From contig JAHJTL010000087.1 in assembly GCA_018829775.1 (NCBI GenBank), positions 1 through 36,086 of the forward strand: a stretch of DNA of 36,086 nt, read 5' to 3'. The notes under the pieces were generated by a model that saw only the letters and a program-made list of their open reading frames with translations, did not search any database and was not told the DNA's origin. The stretch is from Chloroflexota bacterium. Lineage in GTDB: Bacteria > Chloroflexota > Dehalococcoidia > Dehalococcoidales > RBG-16-60-22. Shown here one piece after another: positions 16,772-27,190 of the stretch. The position numbers and the translations under genes are program-made. How positions within the stretch are numbered: position 1 is the stretch's first letter; every line of letters begins with the position of its first letter.

Positions 16772-18148
16772 TCAGGCAGTAACCAGTCGGCAGAACCCTT
16801 TTATGCTTGGTTCCTGCTCCAGAGCCTGCACCCGCGTAACTATCTTCTTCCTTCTCTCCGCAGGGTAAATAGTTGATGTCAGGTCGTCGAACTTACCGAG
16901 CAGTTCTTCCCAGGTCAGCGGGTTTTCCGTGTCTCCCTTAGGATAATCAATCCTGGTCGAGAACCTTCGTCCGTCTTCAGTCACCAGCTCCACGCTGGCT
17001 GGCCACTGCCTGGGGAAGACCGTTTCCAGCCCGGGGTCTTCCACGCAGGAAACGCGCCCCATCATCTCTTTGATTCTGGGGGATTCTATATTCTCCTGAG
17101 TATATTCGTTCAAGGAGGCTTTGCCATAAAGTATGGCAACGGCTGCTCCAAAGGGCATGCTGAACTGGGCGTCAACCAGCGTCTTGGGATTGTACTTCAA
17201 TTCCTCAGGCTCAGCAACTATGGGGAACCCCGCTTTCAATATTCCCAGAGTTACCTGCTTTACCTCCTCCGGTTTCAGGTTATTCTCCCTCATAATACGC
17301 AAAATACCGTCTATCGGGCCCTGCTTGTAACGACAGCAGGCATGGGGCTTGATACTCGTTCTCATGATTTCAAAAGGCTTCCCCAAATCCGCCAGAACCC
17401 TGTCAGGGTCAGCGCCATCGGAATATGCATGCAGGAAACCAAATCTCCCCTCAATTATCGTGGCGGGCCCATTAAATCCCCTCTCTGCCAGCAGAGCCGC
17501 GATTACTCCATTGTGGGCAGCCCACCCGGCGTGCAATCGCTTGGTCCAGGAACCGTCGGCCAGGAATTCCATAGAACCCGCCGCCTGGCTTCCAGCAATG
17601 CCCAGACTATTAATCGTCTGTTCCTGGTCCAGTTCAAGTATTTTGGAGGCAGCGGCGGCAGCTCCAAAGACACCGCATGTTCCCGTTGGGTGAAATCCCC
17701 GGGCATAATGATTGGCCGGATTCAAAGCCTTGCCCAGCCTGGTCATGACCTCATAACCTGCAATTACTCCTTCGATAAACCTTTTCCCGCCGCAGTCAAT
17801 GAGTTCGCCGACAGCGAAGGCCGCCGGGAATATAGCAACTGCGGGGTGGGCAGACGATTCATTATGCAGGTCGTCCAATTCCAGCGAGTGAGCTGATGTG
17901 CCGTTGGCCAGCGCCGCATATTGGGGAGCCGCGCTCATATCAGTCCCGATAATTACCGTGCCTCCTGGGCTTAGTCCGATATCCTTGACGAGACGATACA
18001 CAGTTTTGCTCGACTCAACAAGGGAACCCCGGATGGCGACACCAAGAAAATCCAGACAATGGTATTTAACTCTATCGACTATTTCCAGAGAAATATCTTC
18101 ATACTTAATGCTGGCGCAAAACTCCACCAGCTCACTGGTAATACCCAT
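16772..18148 (-). CDS. MmgE/PrpD-family protein
   Basis: This protein of 458 residues covers the full length of the MmgE/PrpD family. Typical segments are FLGVAIRGS, ANGTSAHSLELDDLH near 80-95, GYEVMTRLGKAL, and IKPHACCRYKQGPIDGI in the middle. The family includes 2-methylcitrate dehydratase and cis-aconitate decarboxylase, which makes itaconate, so a hydro-lyase or decarboxylase acting on a tricarboxylate-like acid is expected. The adjacent CaiB and CitE-like genes make a C5-dicarboxylate route attractive, but this is inference. It lies between the reductase gene downstream and the small beta-barrel gene upstream. Confidence 0.88.
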   Translation of the reverse strand: MGITSELVEFCASIKYEDISLEIVDRVKYHCLDFLGVAIRGSLVESSKTVYRLVKDIGLSPGGTVIIGTDMSAAPQYAALANGTSAHSLELDDLHNESSAHPAVAIFPAAFAVGELIDCGGKRFIEGVIAGYEVMTRLGKALNPANHYARGFHPTGTCGVFGAAAAASKILELDQEQTINSLGIAGSQAAGSMEFLADGSWTKRLHAGWAAHNGVIAALLAERGFNGPATIIEGRFGFLHAYSDGADPDRVLADLGKPFEIMRTSIKPHACCRYKQGPIDGILRIMRENNLKPEEVKQVTLGILKAGFPIVAEPEELKYNPKTLVDAQFSMPFGAAVAILYGKASLNEYTQENIESPRIKEMMGRVSCVEDPGLETVFPRQWPASVELVTEDGRRFSTRIDYPKGDTENPLTWEELLGKFDDLTSTIYPAERRKKIVTRVQALEQEPSIKGFCRLVTA

Positions 18149-18179: not shown

Positions 18180-18503
18180 TTAAGAAACGTATTCCTTTCT
18201 AACTCCTACCTCTTGCCCTATGTCTACCGGCAGAGCAGTTCTCGTCTTTTTGTCCATGCGGAGAGTAGTAATATTCCCGCTTCCTCTGAGTAGAACGGCC
18301 TTTGCTTTTTGTGTCCAGGCACCGATTATTTCGACCGTTTCCCCTTCTGAGACTCCCAGTTCCGTCATCGCCTCCTCAGTCATAGCGGCAACACCATTTC
18401 CGTCTATATCCTCGCCCACGGTGAGGGTAATCTCTTTACCATACTGGGGTGCGGCGTAAGTTCTGCCCTCTACCTTCCTGTAAAACGCATCGCGCATGGT
18501 CAA
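18180..18503 (-). CDS. Stand-alone Cdc48 N-domain-like double-psi beta-barrel protein
   Basis: This protein of 107 residues resembles the N-terminal substrate-binding domain of archaeal VAT/Cdc48. It shows strand TLTVGEDI, then GVAAMTEEAMTELGVSEGET, VEIIG, AVLLRG, and TLRMDKKTRTALPVDIGQEV ending VRKEYV. This is the pattern of gly-rich start, helix, KxLGLxxGDxVEIxG, IxxRMDxxTRxxxxVxxGDxVxVRK. No AAA ATPase domain is present. It sits 17 bases after the fumarate reductase iron-sulfur gene and probably shares its transcript. The start is TTG 18503 with GGAGA upstream, or ATG 18497. Function unknown; an adaptor or chaperone for the reductase is one guess. Confidence 0.65.
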   Translation of the reverse strand: MTMRDAFYRKVEGRTYAAPQYGKEITLTVGEDIDGNGVAAMTEEAMTELGVSEGETVEIIGAWTQKAKAVLLRGSGNITTLRMDKKTRTALPVDIGQEVGVRKEYVS

Positions 18504-18520
18504 CTAATCTCCATAGAATT

Positions 18521-20035
18521 TCAAAGATTTTCAGCTATAAAGTCTATTATATCCATTATCCTGAGGTCATCGCTGTCCCGGGCACTGTCTATAAGGTTCT
18601 GTTCACACCAGGGACAGGCGGATACAATCACTGAGCTACCGGTTTCCCTGGCCTGTTTAATCCTTTCTTTTCCCAGGGCTATTGCCAAATCGTTATTGAC
18701 TAGCTTTACACCACCGCCAGCACCGCAGCAGAACGATTCGGCCCCGGTCTTTGCCATTTCACAGAGCTCAATCCCCTTGACAGCGCCGATAACCTCTCGC
18801 GGCGCACGATAAATCCCGCAATCTCTCCCCAATCGACACGGGTCATGGTATGTTATCCTGGTCTCCGGCATCTTCCTGCGGAGAACGCCCAATTTGTCTT
18901 TGGCTTCAGTGATGACCTGCGAAATATGCTTTACCCCGGGCATTTCTATGGTGGGCAAGTGTTTCGGGTAGTCTAAAGTCAACACCTTATAACATTCAGC
19001 ACAGCCGGTGATGACTGTCCTGGCTCCTCCCGCCTGGAACCTGCGCGCAAGGTCCCGGGCGTTTTCCCTGAACCTTTCCTCGTTACCCGTGTTCAGGAGT
19101 GGGGCACCGCAACACGGTTCATCATCAGCATAGTAGGCAACCTCAATCCCCAGTTTTCTCAATAGCGCTACCGCTGCCTTCAGTGTGTCGCCTCGTTCCA
19201 GGGACGAGAGACAACCGGCAAAGAGCACCGTATCCCCGGTTTTGGGCAGGTCCAGCCCATTTGCCCAGTGCCACTTTGCCTCCTTCCCGAAGGGATTGGA
19301 TTTCCGCCCGATGTTATCGGTTACCTCTTTTATGGACGGGGGAATCTCTTCCTCTCCAAGGAACAGTGACCGGAGCTGTCCTATAGCCTTTTCCGGGATA
19401 TTGATTCCCTTTGGGCATATGTCGGTGCAGGCGCCACACTGGGTACAGTTAAACAGGCCGTATTGAGCTGCCTCGGCCACCCTCTTTGCGGTATCCAACG
19501 GATTAAAGGCCGATTTCGCCAGATGCACCTGGTACATTGGACCAACGAAAGTCTCCCACCCCTCCTTAATCACCGGGCACACCACCAGGCAAGCCAGGCA
19601 ACCAAGGCACTGGGACATCTCCCTGGCAGGCAATACCTCGGACTGAGACGCTTTCATCTCTATTTGGGAGATATCGTCGTCACGATTCAGCCATGGCCTG
19701 AGTTCCTGAAACCGTCTCTCGGCGATATCCCGGTCAATCACCAGGTCCTTTGTCACCGGGAAATAGGGCAGGGGCTCCAGAACCATGCCATTCTCCACCG
19801 GCGCTTTGCAGGCTAAAGTGGGTTTTCCATTGGCCATTACGGTGCAGATGCCACATAGAAATTCTCGGCAGGACAATCGCCAGGCTATGTTTGCCCCATG
19901 TTTCAGATTGACATTATCTATGGCATGAGATATTCTCATGCTCTCATAATGGTCAACAGAGTACTCCTCATAGTGAGGCTCGTTGTCCAGCCGGGAATCA
20001 TAGCGAAGCACCTTTATCGAGAACTGGCTGCTCAC
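18521..20035 (-). CDS. Fumarate reductase iron-sulfur subunit fused to HdrD-like CCG domains (TfrB-like)
   Basis: This protein of 504 residues joins an SdhB/FrdB-type module to a heterodisulfide-reductase-like module, as in thiol:fumarate reductase subunit B of methanogens. A plant-type 2Fe-2S site uses Cys56, Cys61, Cys64 and Cys76. Two 4Fe-4S motifs follow (Cys143/146/149/153 and Cys197/200/203/207). Two CCG domains (CCGAPLLNTG with GCAECY, and CCGAGGG with ACPWC) bind a non-cubane 4Fe-4S cluster in HdrB/HdrD. The electron donor could be a thiol pair, or another carrier if the CCG part has diverged. No membrane anchor subunit is present. The flavoprotein gene lies 47 bases upstream. Confidence 0.88.
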   Translation of the reverse strand: MSSQFSIKVLRYDSRLDNEPHYEEYSVDHYESMRISHAIDNVNLKHGANIAWRLSCREFLCGICTVMANGKPTLACKAPVENGMVLEPLPYFPVTKDLVIDRDIAERRFQELRPWLNRDDDISQIEMKASQSEVLPAREMSQCLGCLACLVVCPVIKEGWETFVGPMYQVHLAKSAFNPLDTAKRVAEAAQYGLFNCTQCGACTDICPKGINIPEKAIGQLRSLFLGEEEIPPSIKEVTDNIGRKSNPFGKEAKWHWANGLDLPKTGDTVLFAGCLSSLERGDTLKAAVALLRKLGIEVAYYADDEPCCGAPLLNTGNEERFRENARDLARRFQAGGARTVITGCAECYKVLTLDYPKHLPTIEMPGVKHISQVITEAKDKLGVLRRKMPETRITYHDPCRLGRDCGIYRAPREVIGAVKGIELCEMAKTGAESFCCGAGGGVKLVNNDLAIALGKERIKQARETGSSVIVSACPWCEQNLIDSARDSDDLRIMDIIDFIAENL

Positions 20036-20082: not shown

Positions 20083-21840
20083 CTACCCCTCAATCTTTCC
20101 GGATACGGGGAACGCCGGTAATTCCACCTCGTCAGGGTCAAGTCGCGTTTTCACAATCGGAGCCTTGGTCAGAACGTATTGACCATCCTCATCCTGATGA
20201 ATGACTATGTTCAGCGTCCAGTCCTTGTCCGGGAGGGGATAATCCTCCCTGAAATGGCCGCATCGGCTTTCTTTCCTTATCAGTGCTGCTCTCGCCATCA
20301 CTTCCGCAGATACAATCATACTCCGAACGTCCATGGCTTCGATGAAGTTCGTGTTGTAAGCGCCGGTTCCATTTCCGATTCGCGGTAAGCGGTTCTCCTT
20401 GATATCATTAAGGGTATCGAGGGCATGCTTGAGCTTTTCTTCAGTTCGGGCAATTCCCACGTAGTCCCAGGTTAGCTCTTTTATCTCATTTCTGATTGCC
20501 ATTGGATTTATCCCGTTATCTGTCCCCACAACATTCGATATCTCCTTCTCAACTCTGGCAAGTTCCTCGTTGAAGCTGGCTTCATTGATTTTACCGTATT
20601 TTCCTGACAGAGCTGTCCGGGCGGCTGCTTCACCGGCAATCTTCCCCGATACCAGCAAGTCGGGCAGCGAATTGGAACCGAGGCGATTGCCACCATGCAC
20701 CCCGCCGACACTCTCGCCGCAGGCGTATAGATTCTTCACCTTTGTCGATTCCCAGTTAGTATCCACCCTGATGCCGCCATCCTGATAATGAGAAGACGGA
20801 TAGACAATGACAGGCTCTTTCCTGATATCCAGACCGTCGTTCAGCCCTCTCATCAATATGGTGTTCAGCCTTTCCTCGATAACACTGGCGGGCAGATGGG
20901 TCACGCTCAGGTAAACGCCGCCATGTTCGGTGCCTCGACCCTCCTGCACCTCAAAATAAATACACCGCGAGGTAAAATCGCGGCAGGCAAGCTCCAGCTG
21001 TTGCGGGTTGTATCTTTCCATGAATCGCTCGCCGTGGACGTTGTAAAGTCTTCCACCTTCACCCCGCACCGCCTCAGTTATCAGAAGCCCGGCCATGGAC
21101 TCGGGTGCAATGTAACTGGTGGGATGGAACTGGAAGACCTCCATATCGACCAGTTCGGCTCCGACCTCAAGTGCCATTCTATTGGCATCACCGACTTTCC
21201 CGGAGGGGGCAATGCAATACTTGAATATCTGACCACTCCCGCCAGAGGCAAGAATGACAGCTTTGGCCTTAAATACCAGAAAGCTTCCCTTTCTCATATC
21301 ATAGGCAACACAACCGATAACTCTTTCGTCCTCCACGAGCAGTTTTAACACCATGCAATCATTGGTGACCCTGATTTGCCTTCTGAGCACCTCGCAGCAG
21401 AGCCCGCGCATCATCTCCCCACCAGTCCGGTCGCCACTGATACAGGTCCTGGGATAGGAATGCCCCCCGAGCTGTCGCTGAAAATACCTCCGGTTATCAT
21501 CTCTGTCAAAAAGGGAGCCATAGCTTTCCAGTTCCTTGAATCGGTCTGGGGCGTTATGACACAGGATTTCTACCAGCTTCTGGTTATTGAGCAGACCCCC
21601 GCCGATACACGTATCCCGGAAATGGGCTTCCCAGTTATCCCTGGAATCAGCGCTGCCGAAGACGGCGGCGTAGCCTCCCATGGCTATTGGCGTACAGCCG
21701 CTGTAGCCGAAAACCCCCTTCACTACCATATGGGTCTTAGCCCCCATCGAATCAGCGGCAATTGCAGACCGGGCAGCGGCTCCACCTCCGCCAACTATCA
21801 ATACATCGGTCTCTATAACGGGAGCGTTCCTTATTATCAT
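20083..21840 (-). CDS. Fumarate reductase/succinate dehydrogenase-type flavoprotein (TfrA-like)
   Basis: This FAD protein of 585 residues has a dinucleotide motif DVLIVGGGGAAARSA (12-26). Further family blocks are EVFQFHPTSY, EAVRGEGGRLYN, and GGVHGGNRLGSNSLPDLLVSGKIAG. Substrate-site residues include the HPTS histidine and the SHYQDGG region. Where SdhA/FrdA carry the SHT histidine that binds FAD covalently, this protein reads SGCTPIAMGG, so FAD is probably non-covalent. It forms a complex with the TfrB-like subunit and would reduce fumarate or another unsaturated acid, or run in reverse. It heads the minus-strand cluster; GGAGAAG precedes the ATG. Confidence 0.9.
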   Translation of the reverse strand: MIIRNAPVIETDVLIVGGGGAAARSAIAADSMGAKTHMVVKGVFGYSGCTPIAMGGYAAVFGSADSRDNWEAHFRDTCIGGGLLNNQKLVEILCHNAPDRFKELESYGSLFDRDDNRRYFQRQLGGHSYPRTCISGDRTGGEMMRGLCCEVLRRQIRVTNDCMVLKLLVEDERVIGCVAYDMRKGSFLVFKAKAVILASGGSGQIFKYCIAPSGKVGDANRMALEVGAELVDMEVFQFHPTSYIAPESMAGLLITEAVRGEGGRLYNVHGERFMERYNPQQLELACRDFTSRCIYFEVQEGRGTEHGGVYLSVTHLPASVIEERLNTILMRGLNDGLDIRKEPVIVYPSSHYQDGGIRVDTNWESTKVKNLYACGESVGGVHGGNRLGSNSLPDLLVSGKIAGEAAARTALSGKYGKINEASFNEELARVEKEISNVVGTDNGINPMAIRNEIKELTWDYVGIARTEEKLKHALDTLNDIKENRLPRIGNGTGAYNTNFIEAMDVRSMIVSAEVMARAALIRKESRCGHFREDYPLPDKDWTLNIVIHQDEDGQYVLTKAPIVKTRLDPDEVELPAFPVSGKIEG

Positions 21841-21894: not shown

Positions 21895-22185
21895 TTATTC
21901 GCCCCATGGTTTAAGGCCCCAATATGGATCTTCATTAAGGTGAGGTGGTAGCTCCTCCATCTCAATAATAACACCGCCGACCTTGTCAGTATCAAAAAAA
22001 GCCATGCCACCGCCACCTTCATTTTTTGAACTGGAGATTACCTTAAACCCTGCCTCAACCATTATAGAAGTCGCTTCTTCGATGTCATCCACAATGAAGG
22101 CTATGTGGTTGATGCCTTCACCGTGGCTCTCCAAAAATATTCTCTGGGGGGACTCTCCTGTAACAACTGAATCTTCAAATAGATA
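21895..22185 (-). pseudogene. Truncated, decayed VOC-family gene copy
   Basis: The last 79 codons closely match the C-terminal half of the VOC protein at 12965-13462: GEGINHIAFIVDDIEEA, AGFKVI, GGGGMAFFDTDKVGGVIIE. The frame continues upstream with weaker similarity (FYLFEDSVVTGESPQRIFLE) but meets a stop at 22222-22224 and has no usable start; the TTG at 22134 lies inside a Leu codon of the alignment. The first half of the fold with two metal ligands is missing. The DNA just after the stop (TTATAGTTGGGAGCAATTAT) is also shared with the other copy, so this was a segmental duplication. Confidence 0.82.
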
Positions 22186-24017: not shown

Positions 24018-25166
24018 CTAGCTGATAGCTTGCTCTTGAACGTAGTCCATGTCCAGCGTCACCCCGAGCCCGGGTCGTTCCGGGATATCAAGGTAACCTT
24101 CCTTCATAACAAACTGCTCGTGCGTAACCTTGTCGCGGAAGGGGTGCGGGGAGCGGTCATATTCAAAAAGTGGTTCGGCCGGGAAGCGGCGCTCGGGAAA
24201 GTTGGGCAGGACGGCAAATAACTGCAGGGCGGCCGCCAGACCGACATTGGTCCCCCAGACGTGTGGAATAACCGGCACGTTCCAGGCACTGGCCAGCGCC
24301 AGTATCCGCATCATCTCGGTGAATCCGCCGGCGGCGCAGAGGTCGGGTTGCAATATATCCACAGCACGCCGGGTAATGAGTTCACGGAAACCGAACCGCG
24401 TATATTCGCACTCGCCACCGGCGATGAGGATGTTGGACTTCCCTTTCACCTCCACGTAGCCATCAATGTCTTCCGGCGGCACCGGTTCCTCCAGCCAGTA
24501 TACATTATAGGCTTCCATCTGGCGGGCCAGCTGGATCGCTTCCGCCGCATTGTAGGCATGATTGGCATCAACCATCAGCCTCATTTCATGGCCAATGGCT
24601 TCCCTCACCGCTCGAACGTATTCCATATCGGTGTCAATTCCATAGCCGACCTTGAGTTTCATCGCCGAGAAGCCAGCCTTCTTGTAGCCAAGTGCCTCTT
24701 CCACGAGTGCATCTTTTATACTGGGCACATGCTGCGGTTCATAGAGACCGGTAGCGTAGACATGTGCCCGATGGCGATAGCCTCCGCCCAGCAGTTTGTA
24801 GACGGGCATACCGAGCGCTTTCCCTTTGATATCCCAGAGGGCGATATCGATGGCGCTGAGGGCACAGACGGGCAGTCCCTTCTGTCCCTGGTCCCTTGTC
24901 CGGTTGTATAGGAAATCCCATATGACACTGCTCTGAAAGGGGTCCGCCCCGGCCAGCAGCGGTGCATAGGCATCGTTTATCATGGTGGTGGCTATCCTGG
25001 CTGGCCCGCCGACATACATCGCTTCCCCCACACCATCGATTCCCTCATCGGTGGAAACCACACACAGGGCCGTCTGGCGTCGGTCGGTCACCCACTGCGA
25101 CCAGCCAAATGCCTTGTCCTCCAGCAGCTCTTCCAGCACATAGGTAGTGACACCGGTTATTTTCAT
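24018..25166 (-). CDS. Mandelate racemase/muconate-lactonizing-enzyme-family protein
   Basis: This protein of 382 residues has an N-terminal capping domain (1-125) and an enolase-type TIM barrel. The catalytic set of the mandelate-racemase subgroup is complete: Lys170-x-Lys172 (MKLKVG), metal ligands Asp200, Glu226 and Glu252, and the Asp275/His302 dyad (QPDL, PHVWG). With both bases present it can abstract the alpha proton of either configuration, so acid-sugar dehydration or racemisation is expected. It lies eight bases after the HpcH/HpaI aldolase gene on the same strand. This gives the familiar pairing of dehydratase and aldolase in sugar-acid breakdown. The actual substrate is unknown. 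Confidence 0.9.
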   Translation of the reverse strand: MKITGVTTYVLEELLEDKAFGWSQWVTDRRQTALCVVSTDEGIDGVGEAMYVGGPARIATTMINDAYAPLLAGADPFQSSVIWDFLYNRTRDQGQKGLPVCALSAIDIALWDIKGKALGMPVYKLLGGGYRHRAHVYATGLYEPQHVPSIKDALVEEALGYKKAGFSAMKLKVGYGIDTDMEYVRAVREAIGHEMRLMVDANHAYNAAEAIQLARQMEAYNVYWLEEPVPPEDIDGYVEVKGKSNILIAGGECEYTRFGFRELITRRAVDILQPDLCAAGGFTEMMRILALASAWNVPVIPHVWGTNVGLAAALQLFAVLPNFPERRFPAEPLFEYDRSPHPFRDKVTHEQFVMKEGYLDIPERPGLGVTLDMDYVQEQAIS

Positions 25167-25174
25167 CTTCCCGC

Positions 25175-25936
25175 CTATTTCTTTGTCGTCTTACCGGCTT
25201 TCTCAAGGGCCATTTTGGCCCCCTTGAGGAGAAAGGTATCGTCCGCATCAACGGTATTGAATATGAACCCCTTTTCCAGAGCCCACTCAACGTTCTCAGA
25301 GATACAGAACATGCCGGCCGGCTTGCCGTGCTTGTCCGCGGCTTGCAGAACCCTGTCGAACGCTTCCTGATATTGCGGTGCATCCCAGTCCGGAGGCACG
25401 CCAAATCCCAGGCTAACCGAGAGGTCCCATGGGCCGATATAACAGGCATCAATGCCCGGCACGGAGAGAATCTCATCCAGGTTGTCGAGCGCCTTTTTGG
25501 TCTCAATCTGGATGGTGATGAGAAGCTCATCGTTGGCCGTCTTGAAGTAGTCGGGGTCGAACATGCCGGCACGCCTCGGCCCCCACCCCCGGATACCCTC
25601 CGGCGGGTACTTGCAGTACCTCACCGCATTCTCCGCTTCTTCCCTGGAGTTCACCCAGGGGATGAGCACGCCGTAGGCACCGATGTCCAGCACCCGTTTT
25701 ATCACTACCTGGTCGTTCCACTGTGGCCTCACAATGGGTATACAACCACTTCCGTTCATTGCCTGCATCATGCGCTGCAGCGTCTCGTAACCCGCCGGCG
25801 CATGCTCGCTGTCGAGCAGCAGCCAGTCAAATCCCACGCGTGAAAGCCACTCCGCCACATCCGGATGTCCCACCATGACGAATGTGCCGATTACCGCCTC
25901 GCCCTTCTTCAACTTTTCCTTTAAAGGGTTCTTCAA
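25175..25936 (-). CDS. HpcH/HpaI-family class II aldolase (copy 2)
   Basis: This protein of 253 residues is a close paralogue of the aldolase at 437-1213. Shared positions include His45, Arg70, Glu145 and Asp171, and blocks such as ETLQRMMQAMNGSG, KYPPEGIRGWGPRR and KTANDE. It should cleave a 2-keto-3-deoxy or 4-hydroxy-2-keto acid to pyruvate and an aldehyde using a divalent metal. The start is TTG, with AGGAGG eight bases upstream. It is the first gene of a two-gene operon with the downstream enolase-family enzyme, which would supply its 2-keto-3-deoxy substrate. Confidence 0.9.
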   Translation of the reverse strand: MKNPLKEKLKKGEAVIGTFVMVGHPDVAEWLSRVGFDWLLLDSEHAPAGYETLQRMMQAMNGSGCIPIVRPQWNDQVVIKRVLDIGAYGVLIPWVNSREEAENAVRYCKYPPEGIRGWGPRRAGMFDPDYFKTANDELLITIQIETKKALDNLDEILSVPGIDACYIGPWDLSVSLGFGVPPDWDAPQYQEAFDRVLQAADKHGKPAGMFCISENVEWALEKGFIFNTVDADDTFLLKGAKMALEKAGKTTKK

Positions 25937-26058
25937 TACGTTTACCTCCTGTCTGTCCTTATATTTCAGCTGAAATCCGCCACATTCTAACAGACCCCTT
26001 TTAAGGCTGTCAAAATAACAATGAAAGATTGCTCAGACAGGCCGAGTTTGCTTTTGCC

Positions 26059-26088
26059 TTGACAAATTTCTATACAGTCAAATAATAT
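26059..26088 (+). promoter_or_regulatory. Sigma-70-type promoter of the acid-sugar operon
   Basis: A perfect TTGACA (26059-26064) and TAATAT (26083-26088) are separated by 18 bases. Transcription would start near 26095, right at the AAAGGAGG that precedes the ATG at 26108. The untranslated leader would then be only about 13 bases. It lies in the 171-bp divergent gap opposite the aldolase gene. Confidence 0.65.
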
Positions 26089-26107
26089 TGGCCGAAAGGA
26101 GGACGCA

Positions 26108-27190
26108 ATGAAAGTCACCGATATGGTCAGCACCCCGCTGTCGGTACCGCTCAAGTGGCCATTTAAGAACGGTTTTGCCGTCGACAGGGTCAATCCGGTG
26201 GTGGTTCAACTTTTCACCGATGAAGGACTGGAAGGGATTGGCCTGGCTTTCACCTGGAATGACCAGCGTGTGAAATCGCTGAAAGCCTGCATTGACGACC
26301 TGAAAGAGACCGTAGTGGGGCAGGATATATTCCGCTGGGCCGAGGCCTGGCAGAAACTCTGGAATGATACCAGGTGGATGGGGCATCAGGGGTATCCCAT
26401 CTATGCCCTTTCCGCCATCGATACCGCGCTCTGGGACCTGCGGGCGAAAGCCGCTGGCATGCCGGTTGCCCGTTTGCTCGGCGGATACCGTGATGAAGTG
26501 CCCGTATATGCCAGCCACCTTCTATTTTGCAACTGGAGCATTGACGAATTGCAGAAAGATGCGGCTTCCCTGGTGAAGCAGGGCTTCCGCGCCATGAAAA
26601 TGAACATGGGCAATAAACCGTTCCAGGTTGAGCTGGAAAGGCTGAAGGCGGTGAGAGAGGTGGTGGGGGACGACATTGATATAATGGTTGACGTGAACTG
26701 GGTGTGGACGGTGCCCCAGGCAGTTCAGATGGGGCGAGAGCTTGAGAGGTACCACGTGTACTGGCTGGAAGACCCGCTGCCCAGCAACGACCCCGCGGAC
26801 TGGGCCCTGGTCACCAGTGCCCTGGGCCTGAGGGTTGCCGGCGGTGAGACGCTCTCCAGCAAACACGATTTCCGCCGCGTGTTTGAGAACAAGGCGCTGG
26901 ATGTGCTGATGCCGGACCTGCAGCGGGTTGGCGGGGTTACCGAATGGATGAAGGTGGCCGCGATGGCCGAGGCCTGGAATTTACCCGTGGCCAGCCACGT
27001 CTTCCACGAATTTTCCGCCCATCTGGTGGCCGCCATCCCGAACGGCCTCATCGTTGAATATATGCCCTGGTGGGATTTCATTTATCAGGAGCCGCTGCCA
27101 CTCAAGGACGGCTATATCAGAATCCCCGATAAGCCAGGGTTTGGGCTGGAACTGAACCCGGATATTGTCCAGAAATACGCAATGAAATAG
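26108..27190 (+). CDS. Mandelate racemase/enolase-superfamily protein with KxN instead of KxK
   Basis: The 360-residue protein keeps the exact residue register of mandelate racemase: Lys164, Asp195, Glu221, Glu247, Asp270 and His297 all fall at the reference numbers. The exception is position 166, Lys in the racemase, which is Asn here (MKMNMG). The remaining base dyad Asp270/His297 suggests stereospecific proton abstraction or dehydration rather than racemisation. The capping domain is at 1-125 and the barrel follows. AAAGGAGG lies before the ATG. It is the first gene of an operon with a DUF2520 dehydrogenase and a galactonate-dehydratase-like enzyme. Its substrate is probably a hydroxy or sugar acid. 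Confidence 0.88.
   Translation: MKVTDMVSTPLSVPLKWPFKNGFAVDRVNPVVVQLFTDEGLEGIGLAFTWNDQRVKSLKACIDDLKETVVGQDIFRWAEAWQKLWNDTRWMGHQGYPIYALSAIDTALWDLRAKAAGMPVARLLGGYRDEVPVYASHLLFCNWSIDELQKDAASLVKQGFRAMKMNMGNKPFQVELERLKAVREVVGDDIDIMVDVNWVWTVPQAVQMGRELERYHVYWLEDPLPSNDPADWALVTSALGLRVAGGETLSSKHDFRRVFENKALDVLMPDLQRVGGVTEWMKVAAMAEAWNLPVASHVFHEFSAHLVAAIPNGLIVEYMPWWDFIYQEPLPLKDGYIRIPDKPGFGLELNPDIVQKYAMK

Follow-up and report, generated by a model that had tools for sequence, protein, structure and literature searches.

A stand-alone Cdc48 N-domain-type barrel encoded beside a TfrAB-like reductase in Dehalococcoidia, a probable dedicated partner of the enzyme

The window analysed here, a stretch of 36,086 nucleotides from a Chloroflexota genome of the class Dehalococcoidia (assembly GCA_018829775.1, contig JAHJTL010000087.1), carries a minus-strand run of genes in which a TfrA-like flavoprotein and a TfrB-like iron-sulfur protein are followed by a small stand-alone barrel protein and then by a member of the MmgE/PrpD family (Table 1). 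The original prediction had put the small open reading frame in the right place, and the strand that encodes it is the minus strand; its figures of 107 residues and a 17-base gap after tfrB had been counted from a TTG codon at 18503. In a sister genome of the same genus (G005) the ATG at 18497 is kept and this TTG is not, making a protein of 105 residues and a gap of 23 bases more likely. The intergenic gaps on either side are 47 bases between tfrA and tfrB and 31 bases between the barrel gene and the MmgE/PrpD gene. Comparison of the barrel gene with its G005 copy gives a dN/dS of 0.154, with third codon positions accounting for 29 of the 41 nucleotide differences; the corresponding values against the sister genome are 0.158 for tfrB, 0.114 for tfrA and 0.189 for MmgE/PrpD. 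The barrel frame is a real, constrained gene, and the constraint on it is as strong as that on tfrA and tfrB.

Table 1. Features at the barrel locus, in positions of the window, with the basis of each assignment
Feature	Positions	Strand	Basis
MmgE/PrpD family protein, next gene downstream	16772..18148	-	Pfam
Stand-alone CDC48_N-type protein of 105 aa starting at ATG, a double-psi barrel by homology	18180..18497 (incl. stop)	-	Pfam PF02359, ORF, purifying selection, conserved ATG
N-terminal extension of the barrel protein, residues 1-21, starting the Y-x-A-P-x-Y-G-x-E-I-x-L-T motif	18435..18497	-	Three-protein alignment
tfrB-like iron-sulfur subunit, 504 aa: Fer2, Fer4, two CCG domains	18521..20035	-	Pfam, NCBIfam
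tfrA-like flavoprotein, 585 aa: FAD_binding_2, Succ_DH_flav_C	20083..21840	-	Pfam

Downstream of MmgE/PrpD the run continues with other genes for acid and CoA metabolism, and the cluster also encodes CoA-transferase III and CitE-like proteins. We do not judge the MmgE/PrpD gene to be a member of the tfrAB-barrel unit; it stays intact in G349, a genome from another family that has lost tfrAB and the barrel gene. No BKACE gene was seen in the window at the place before tfrA that it occupies in G005. Just upstream of tfrA (21895-22134, minus strand) is a 79-residue glyoxalase-family-like frame, by appearance a truncated copy, of which G349 has a longer version beside its BKACE gene. Two mandelate-racemase/enolase-type proteins and an HpcH/HpaI aldolase are encoded near the cluster, at 24018-27190.

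Against the Pfam CDC48_N family the window protein scores 46.0 bits over residues 25-101 (cut-off 35.1, E 6.2e-12), and a Pfam scan at E <= 1 matched no other family; within the 105 residues there was no AAA ATPase domain and no match to the Nc half of the N-domain (CDC48 domain 2), the protein stopping after the barrel. The G005 copy is also above the cut-off at 41.7 bits, and a more distant homologue in the genome G094, taken alone, falls below it at 29.1 bits. Under a model made from 20 AAA-borne N-domains the window protein reaches 27.8 bits, as against at most 11.7 for 2,000 shuffles. When the profile of all three proteins is compared with solved chains, symmetric barrel designs come out best (E 2e-12 and worse), with the natural Cdc48-family chains 7dg7 (E 1.8e-7) and 7dg9 (E 4.5e-6) and VAT-N (1cz4, E 0.006) also matched. 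The Pfam score and the profile match to solved barrels bear out the homology with the Cdc48/VAT N-terminal double-psi barrel that had been proposed for this protein, and the accompanying claim that it lacks an ATPase domain agrees with the Pfam scan. An AlphaFold2 model built from just two sequences, the window protein and the G005 copy, has a mean pLDDT of 48.3, too poor to use, and a Foldseek search with it returned nothing at E <= 0.001; since this is the sole structure model, the double-psi-barrel fold rests on sequence homology. Judged by these profiles, the window protein is a CDC48_N-type barrel without an ATPase. It contains no cysteine and no histidine, and so is not itself a thiol carrier.

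Three stand-alone proteins of this kind were found. The G005 barrel is 88% identical to the window protein, and the G094 barrel, of 107 residues, is 40-41% identical and comes from a different order of Dehalococcoidia, one represented by a single genome. All three share the motif Y-x-A-P-x-Y-G-x-E-I-x-L-T (residues 14-26), and the extension in which it starts falls outside most of the CDC48_N homology. No counterpart of the motif occurs in 20 aligned AAA-borne N-domains, its first part preceding the start of their domain. In a tree that sets them among 24 AAA-borne N-domains from the same phylum, the stand-alone proteins come together as one clade (UFBoot 97, FastTree 0.943) at the end of a long branch, whose attachment among the AAA N-domains the tree does not resolve.

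Many of the genomes searched for the family are incomplete. The window's own genome (G000, 95.6% complete) has a single CDC48_N match, the window gene, and G094 likewise has its barrel protein as the single match. Among 61 genomes comprising G000 and its near relatives there are four matches at E <= 0.001, of which the two above the cut-off are the window and G005; the barrel is present in two of the six genomes of the genus and two of the 31 of the family. Across the class, 51 of 393 genomes match CDC48_N at E <= 0.001, 32 of them above the cut-off, and all of those except the window's lie in frames of at least 544 residues; the G094 homologue emerged on reading one of the weaker matches below the Pfam cut-off. 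A two-row profile run on 400 genomes of the phylum gave 14 matches, the window and 13 others, all belonging to one family; the frames span 266-921 residues, and the 266-residue frame runs into an AAA frame. The class matches further include a 115-residue frame (G083); short CDC48_N frames in G150, G135, G298 and G019 and a long one in G033 lack the family motif, and the three-row family profile A2 has weak matches in G303, G155 and G281. Species genomes were searched within the window's own phylum, and the search was carried beyond it through genome contigs by peptide pattern, plasmids and viral contigs. The contig scan with the window protein found one locus, the G005 one (L002, JAUWLN010000006.1, from a Dehalococcoidia bacterium), and the plasmid scan found no match; among 80 loci from a D1-domain scan of viral contigs, none had an N-domain under the 20-domain model. 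Weak CDC48_N similarity was also seen in a 307-residue frame whose C-terminal part is hydrophobic and which has two barrel-like stretches (L041, 6456-7376, minus strand; 20 bits) and in two 136-residue frames (L038, 3096-3503, minus strand; L039, 467-874, plus strand), which to us look more like FwdD-type barrels.

Turning to the enzyme, the "Tfr-type" label given to it by the original prediction stands for the domain architecture (Fer2, Fer4 and two CCG domains, with an FAD flavoprotein), whereas both subunits stay under the curated cut-offs for the true CoM/CoB enzyme: the window TfrB scores 357.1 bits against NCBIfam TfrB (cut-off 385) and the window TfrA 613.4 bits against NCBIfam TfrA (cut-off 718). 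All cluster cysteines are present in the window TfrB. The window TfrA keeps the motifs HPT, RD-SR and HYxxGG, and its Cys49 aligns where covalent-FAD relatives carry histidine; we take Cys49 to stand in the place of the covalent-FAD histidine. In the G094 TfrB (L037, 5309-6874, minus strand) the first CCG set lacks one cysteine and the second lacks all, so that the two barrel-linked enzymes need not share a chemistry.

The order tfrA-tfrB-barrel is found in all three intact cases, namely the window, G005 (locus L002) and G094 (locus L037). In G005 the genes run BKACE, tfrA, tfrB, barrel, MmgE/PrpD. In G094, where tfrB again comes after tfrA and the frames of tfrB and the barrel overlap by 4 bases, the neighbours are a methylmalonyl-CoA mutase, two acetyl-CoA hydrolase/transferase genes, a dehydratase-type gene, a B12-binding protein and methylaspartate mutase E; apart from tfrA, tfrB and the barrel, these are unlike the neighbours in the taxonomic order of the window and G005. 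The neighbours in both lineages suggest branched dicarboxylate substrates, for example mesaconate or itaconate. When G000-G005, G349 and G094 are compared, full-length TfrB occurs in G000, G005 and G094 only, which are the barrel carriers; within the genus, the same two of six genomes hold both. G349, from another family of the window's order, has an intact BKACE gene, then a barrel 3' end of about 30 codons with stops, then an intact MmgE/PrpD gene, and its genome contains no full-length TfrB and no close TfrA elsewhere. This reads as a single deletion across tfrA, tfrB and the beginning of the barrel gene, with the barrel remnant decaying afterwards; an assembly error is possible, yet it leaves the stops in the remnant unexplained. 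The genomic link to the reductase genes that had been anticipated from the window alone was thus recovered in other genomes, through the gene order in G005 and G094. Taken together, two independent contexts and one joint loss support a link between barrel and reductase across few lineages.

TfrAB-like pairs also occur with a different small protein. A TfrB search of 323 class genomes, with at most four candidates scored per genome, gave 22 hits at E <= 1e-60, of which those in G000, G094, G085 and G067 match over the whole length; a phylum search of 370 genomes at E <= 1e-66, again with at most four candidates scored in each, returned the window's own gene only, and both searches may have missed full-length genes. 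The barrel is present beside full-length tfrB in G000 and G094 and absent in G085 and G067, showing that a TfrAB-like enzyme does not need a barrel in general. The subunits in the latter two genomes are 26-42% identical to the barrel-linked ones. In G085 a GcvH-like gene directly follows tfrB; in G067 the GcvH-like gene stands before tfrA, behind another CCG gene, and what follows tfrB is presumably an OsmC-like gene, so that an exchangeable slot after tfrB has G085 as its single example. Lipoate-ligase-like and radical-SAM-like genes are nearby in both. By Pfam, the small proteins of loci L105 and L106 match GCV_H, and the window protein does not. At both loci (L105, 1-8677; L106, 1-10732) the TfrAB-like pair shares its operon with a GcvH-like carrier as well as lipoate-ligase and radical SAM proteins, and the lipoyl carrier may be the redox partner of these pairs. 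The set of radical SAM and lipoate-ligase genes resembles the LipS1/S2 pathway (PMC10332631).

Because the barrel accompanies tfrAB in two distant lineages, it is probably a dedicated partner of the enzyme. The reading that we favor, with a probability of roughly 55%, is that it is a dedicated, non-catalytic partner of the TfrAB-like enzyme and most likely stays bound to it as a small subunit or a docking cap. Cdc48 N-domains are known for binding peptides or surfaces; here, the barrel with its added N-terminal motif would bind TfrB or the TfrAB interface independently of ATP, and once bound could stabilise the TfrAB complex or dock it to an electron or substrate partner. The main rival, which we hold to be possible and clearly less probable, is that the barrel acts outside the final complex as a factor that helps TfrA or TfrB to assemble or fold without using ATP, for example in cluster or FAD insertion or in protection of the apo-enzyme. 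The operon data speak for such a factor as much as for a bound partner, and there would be work for it, as TfrA has Cys49 instead of the covalent-FAD histidine and TfrB needs several clusters; moreover, the VAT N-domain in isolation aids folding by itself. However, this class also has TfrAB pairs linked to GcvH that carry these same domains and cysteines and manage without a barrel, and the frame overlap in G094 together with constraint like that on a structural gene suits a stoichiometric partner at least equally well.

Two further readings are less probable still. The barrel could be a small-molecule-binding or regulatory barrel for the wider dicarboxylate gene cluster, in keeping with the MmgE/PrpD, CoA-transferase III and CitE-like proteins in the window and the methylaspartate mutase E, methylmalonyl-CoA mutase and CoA-transferase proteins in G094, both clusters having the look of branched dicarboxylate metabolism. 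We consider this improbable, as the barrel stays with tfrAB where the remaining cluster differs, and was lost together with tfrAB in G349 while MmgE/PrpD and BKACE remained. Least probable of all, and in our view very unlikely, is a quality-control adaptor delivering the reductase, or some other client, to an AAA ATPase, even though this is the domain with which Cdc48/VAT binds substrates and adaptors. Recruitment of substrates to an AAA ATPase, which the original prediction had given as the role of such domains, finds no support here: at the thresholds used, the barrel protein is the sole CDC48_N match in G000 and likewise in G094, making a Cdc48 adaptor role unlikely in these hosts. The Nc half is also missing, and an enzyme-specific gene order with joint loss does not suggest general quality control. 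Returning to the bound partner, a more specific and tentative scenario, to which we give a fairly low probability, is that a Cdc48-type barrel parted from its ancestral ATPase to become a permanent subunit of a TfrAB-like enzyme, in the operon place that the lipoyl carrier occupies in G085. It would perhaps serve there as a docking module, through which the flavo-iron-sulfur core could pass electrons to or from a different partner protein in place of a lipoyl carrier.

If a dedicated partner is the right reading, a domain that recruits substrates for a protein-unfolding machinery has been put to new use, without its motor, as the specific partner of a redox enzyme in metabolism. This would also suggest that TfrAB-like operons may differ in their small partner gene, which is a barrel in some and a lipoyl carrier in others, and such a variable partner gene makes the electron partner of uncharacterised bacterial TfrAB-like enzymes a testable question. 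Additionally, it would give a way into the function of a small protein likely to be annotated as hypothetical. In the titles and abstract openings that our literature search covered, with most subscription papers outside its scope, we found no free-standing CDC48_N protein beside a reductase.

Several known systems invite comparison. By profiles, the window protein is the same domain as the Nn double-psi barrel of Cdc48/VAT (PF02359; 1cz4, 7dg7, 7dg9), from which it differs in lacking the Nc half and the D1/D2 ATPase, in having an extra N-terminal motif, and in being encoded as a stand-alone gene after metabolic genes. A free-standing barrel subunit of a redox enzyme has a precedent in FwdD of formylmethanofuran dehydrogenase (5t5i), with which the window protein has weak local similarity only (17.5 bits against a cut-off of 175; E 0.36 when the three-protein profile is compared with solved chains) and from which it is further set apart by a gene unit without a molybdopterin enzyme. 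The methanogen thiol:fumarate reductase TfrAB (NF004898, NF004900), which works with CoM and CoB, has the same architecture as the window pair in both subunits, whereas the window subunits miss both curated cut-offs and are followed by a barrel gene. With the operons of G085 and G067 the window operon shares two subunits and a small third protein; there the third protein is a lipoyl carrier, and in the window it is the barrel.
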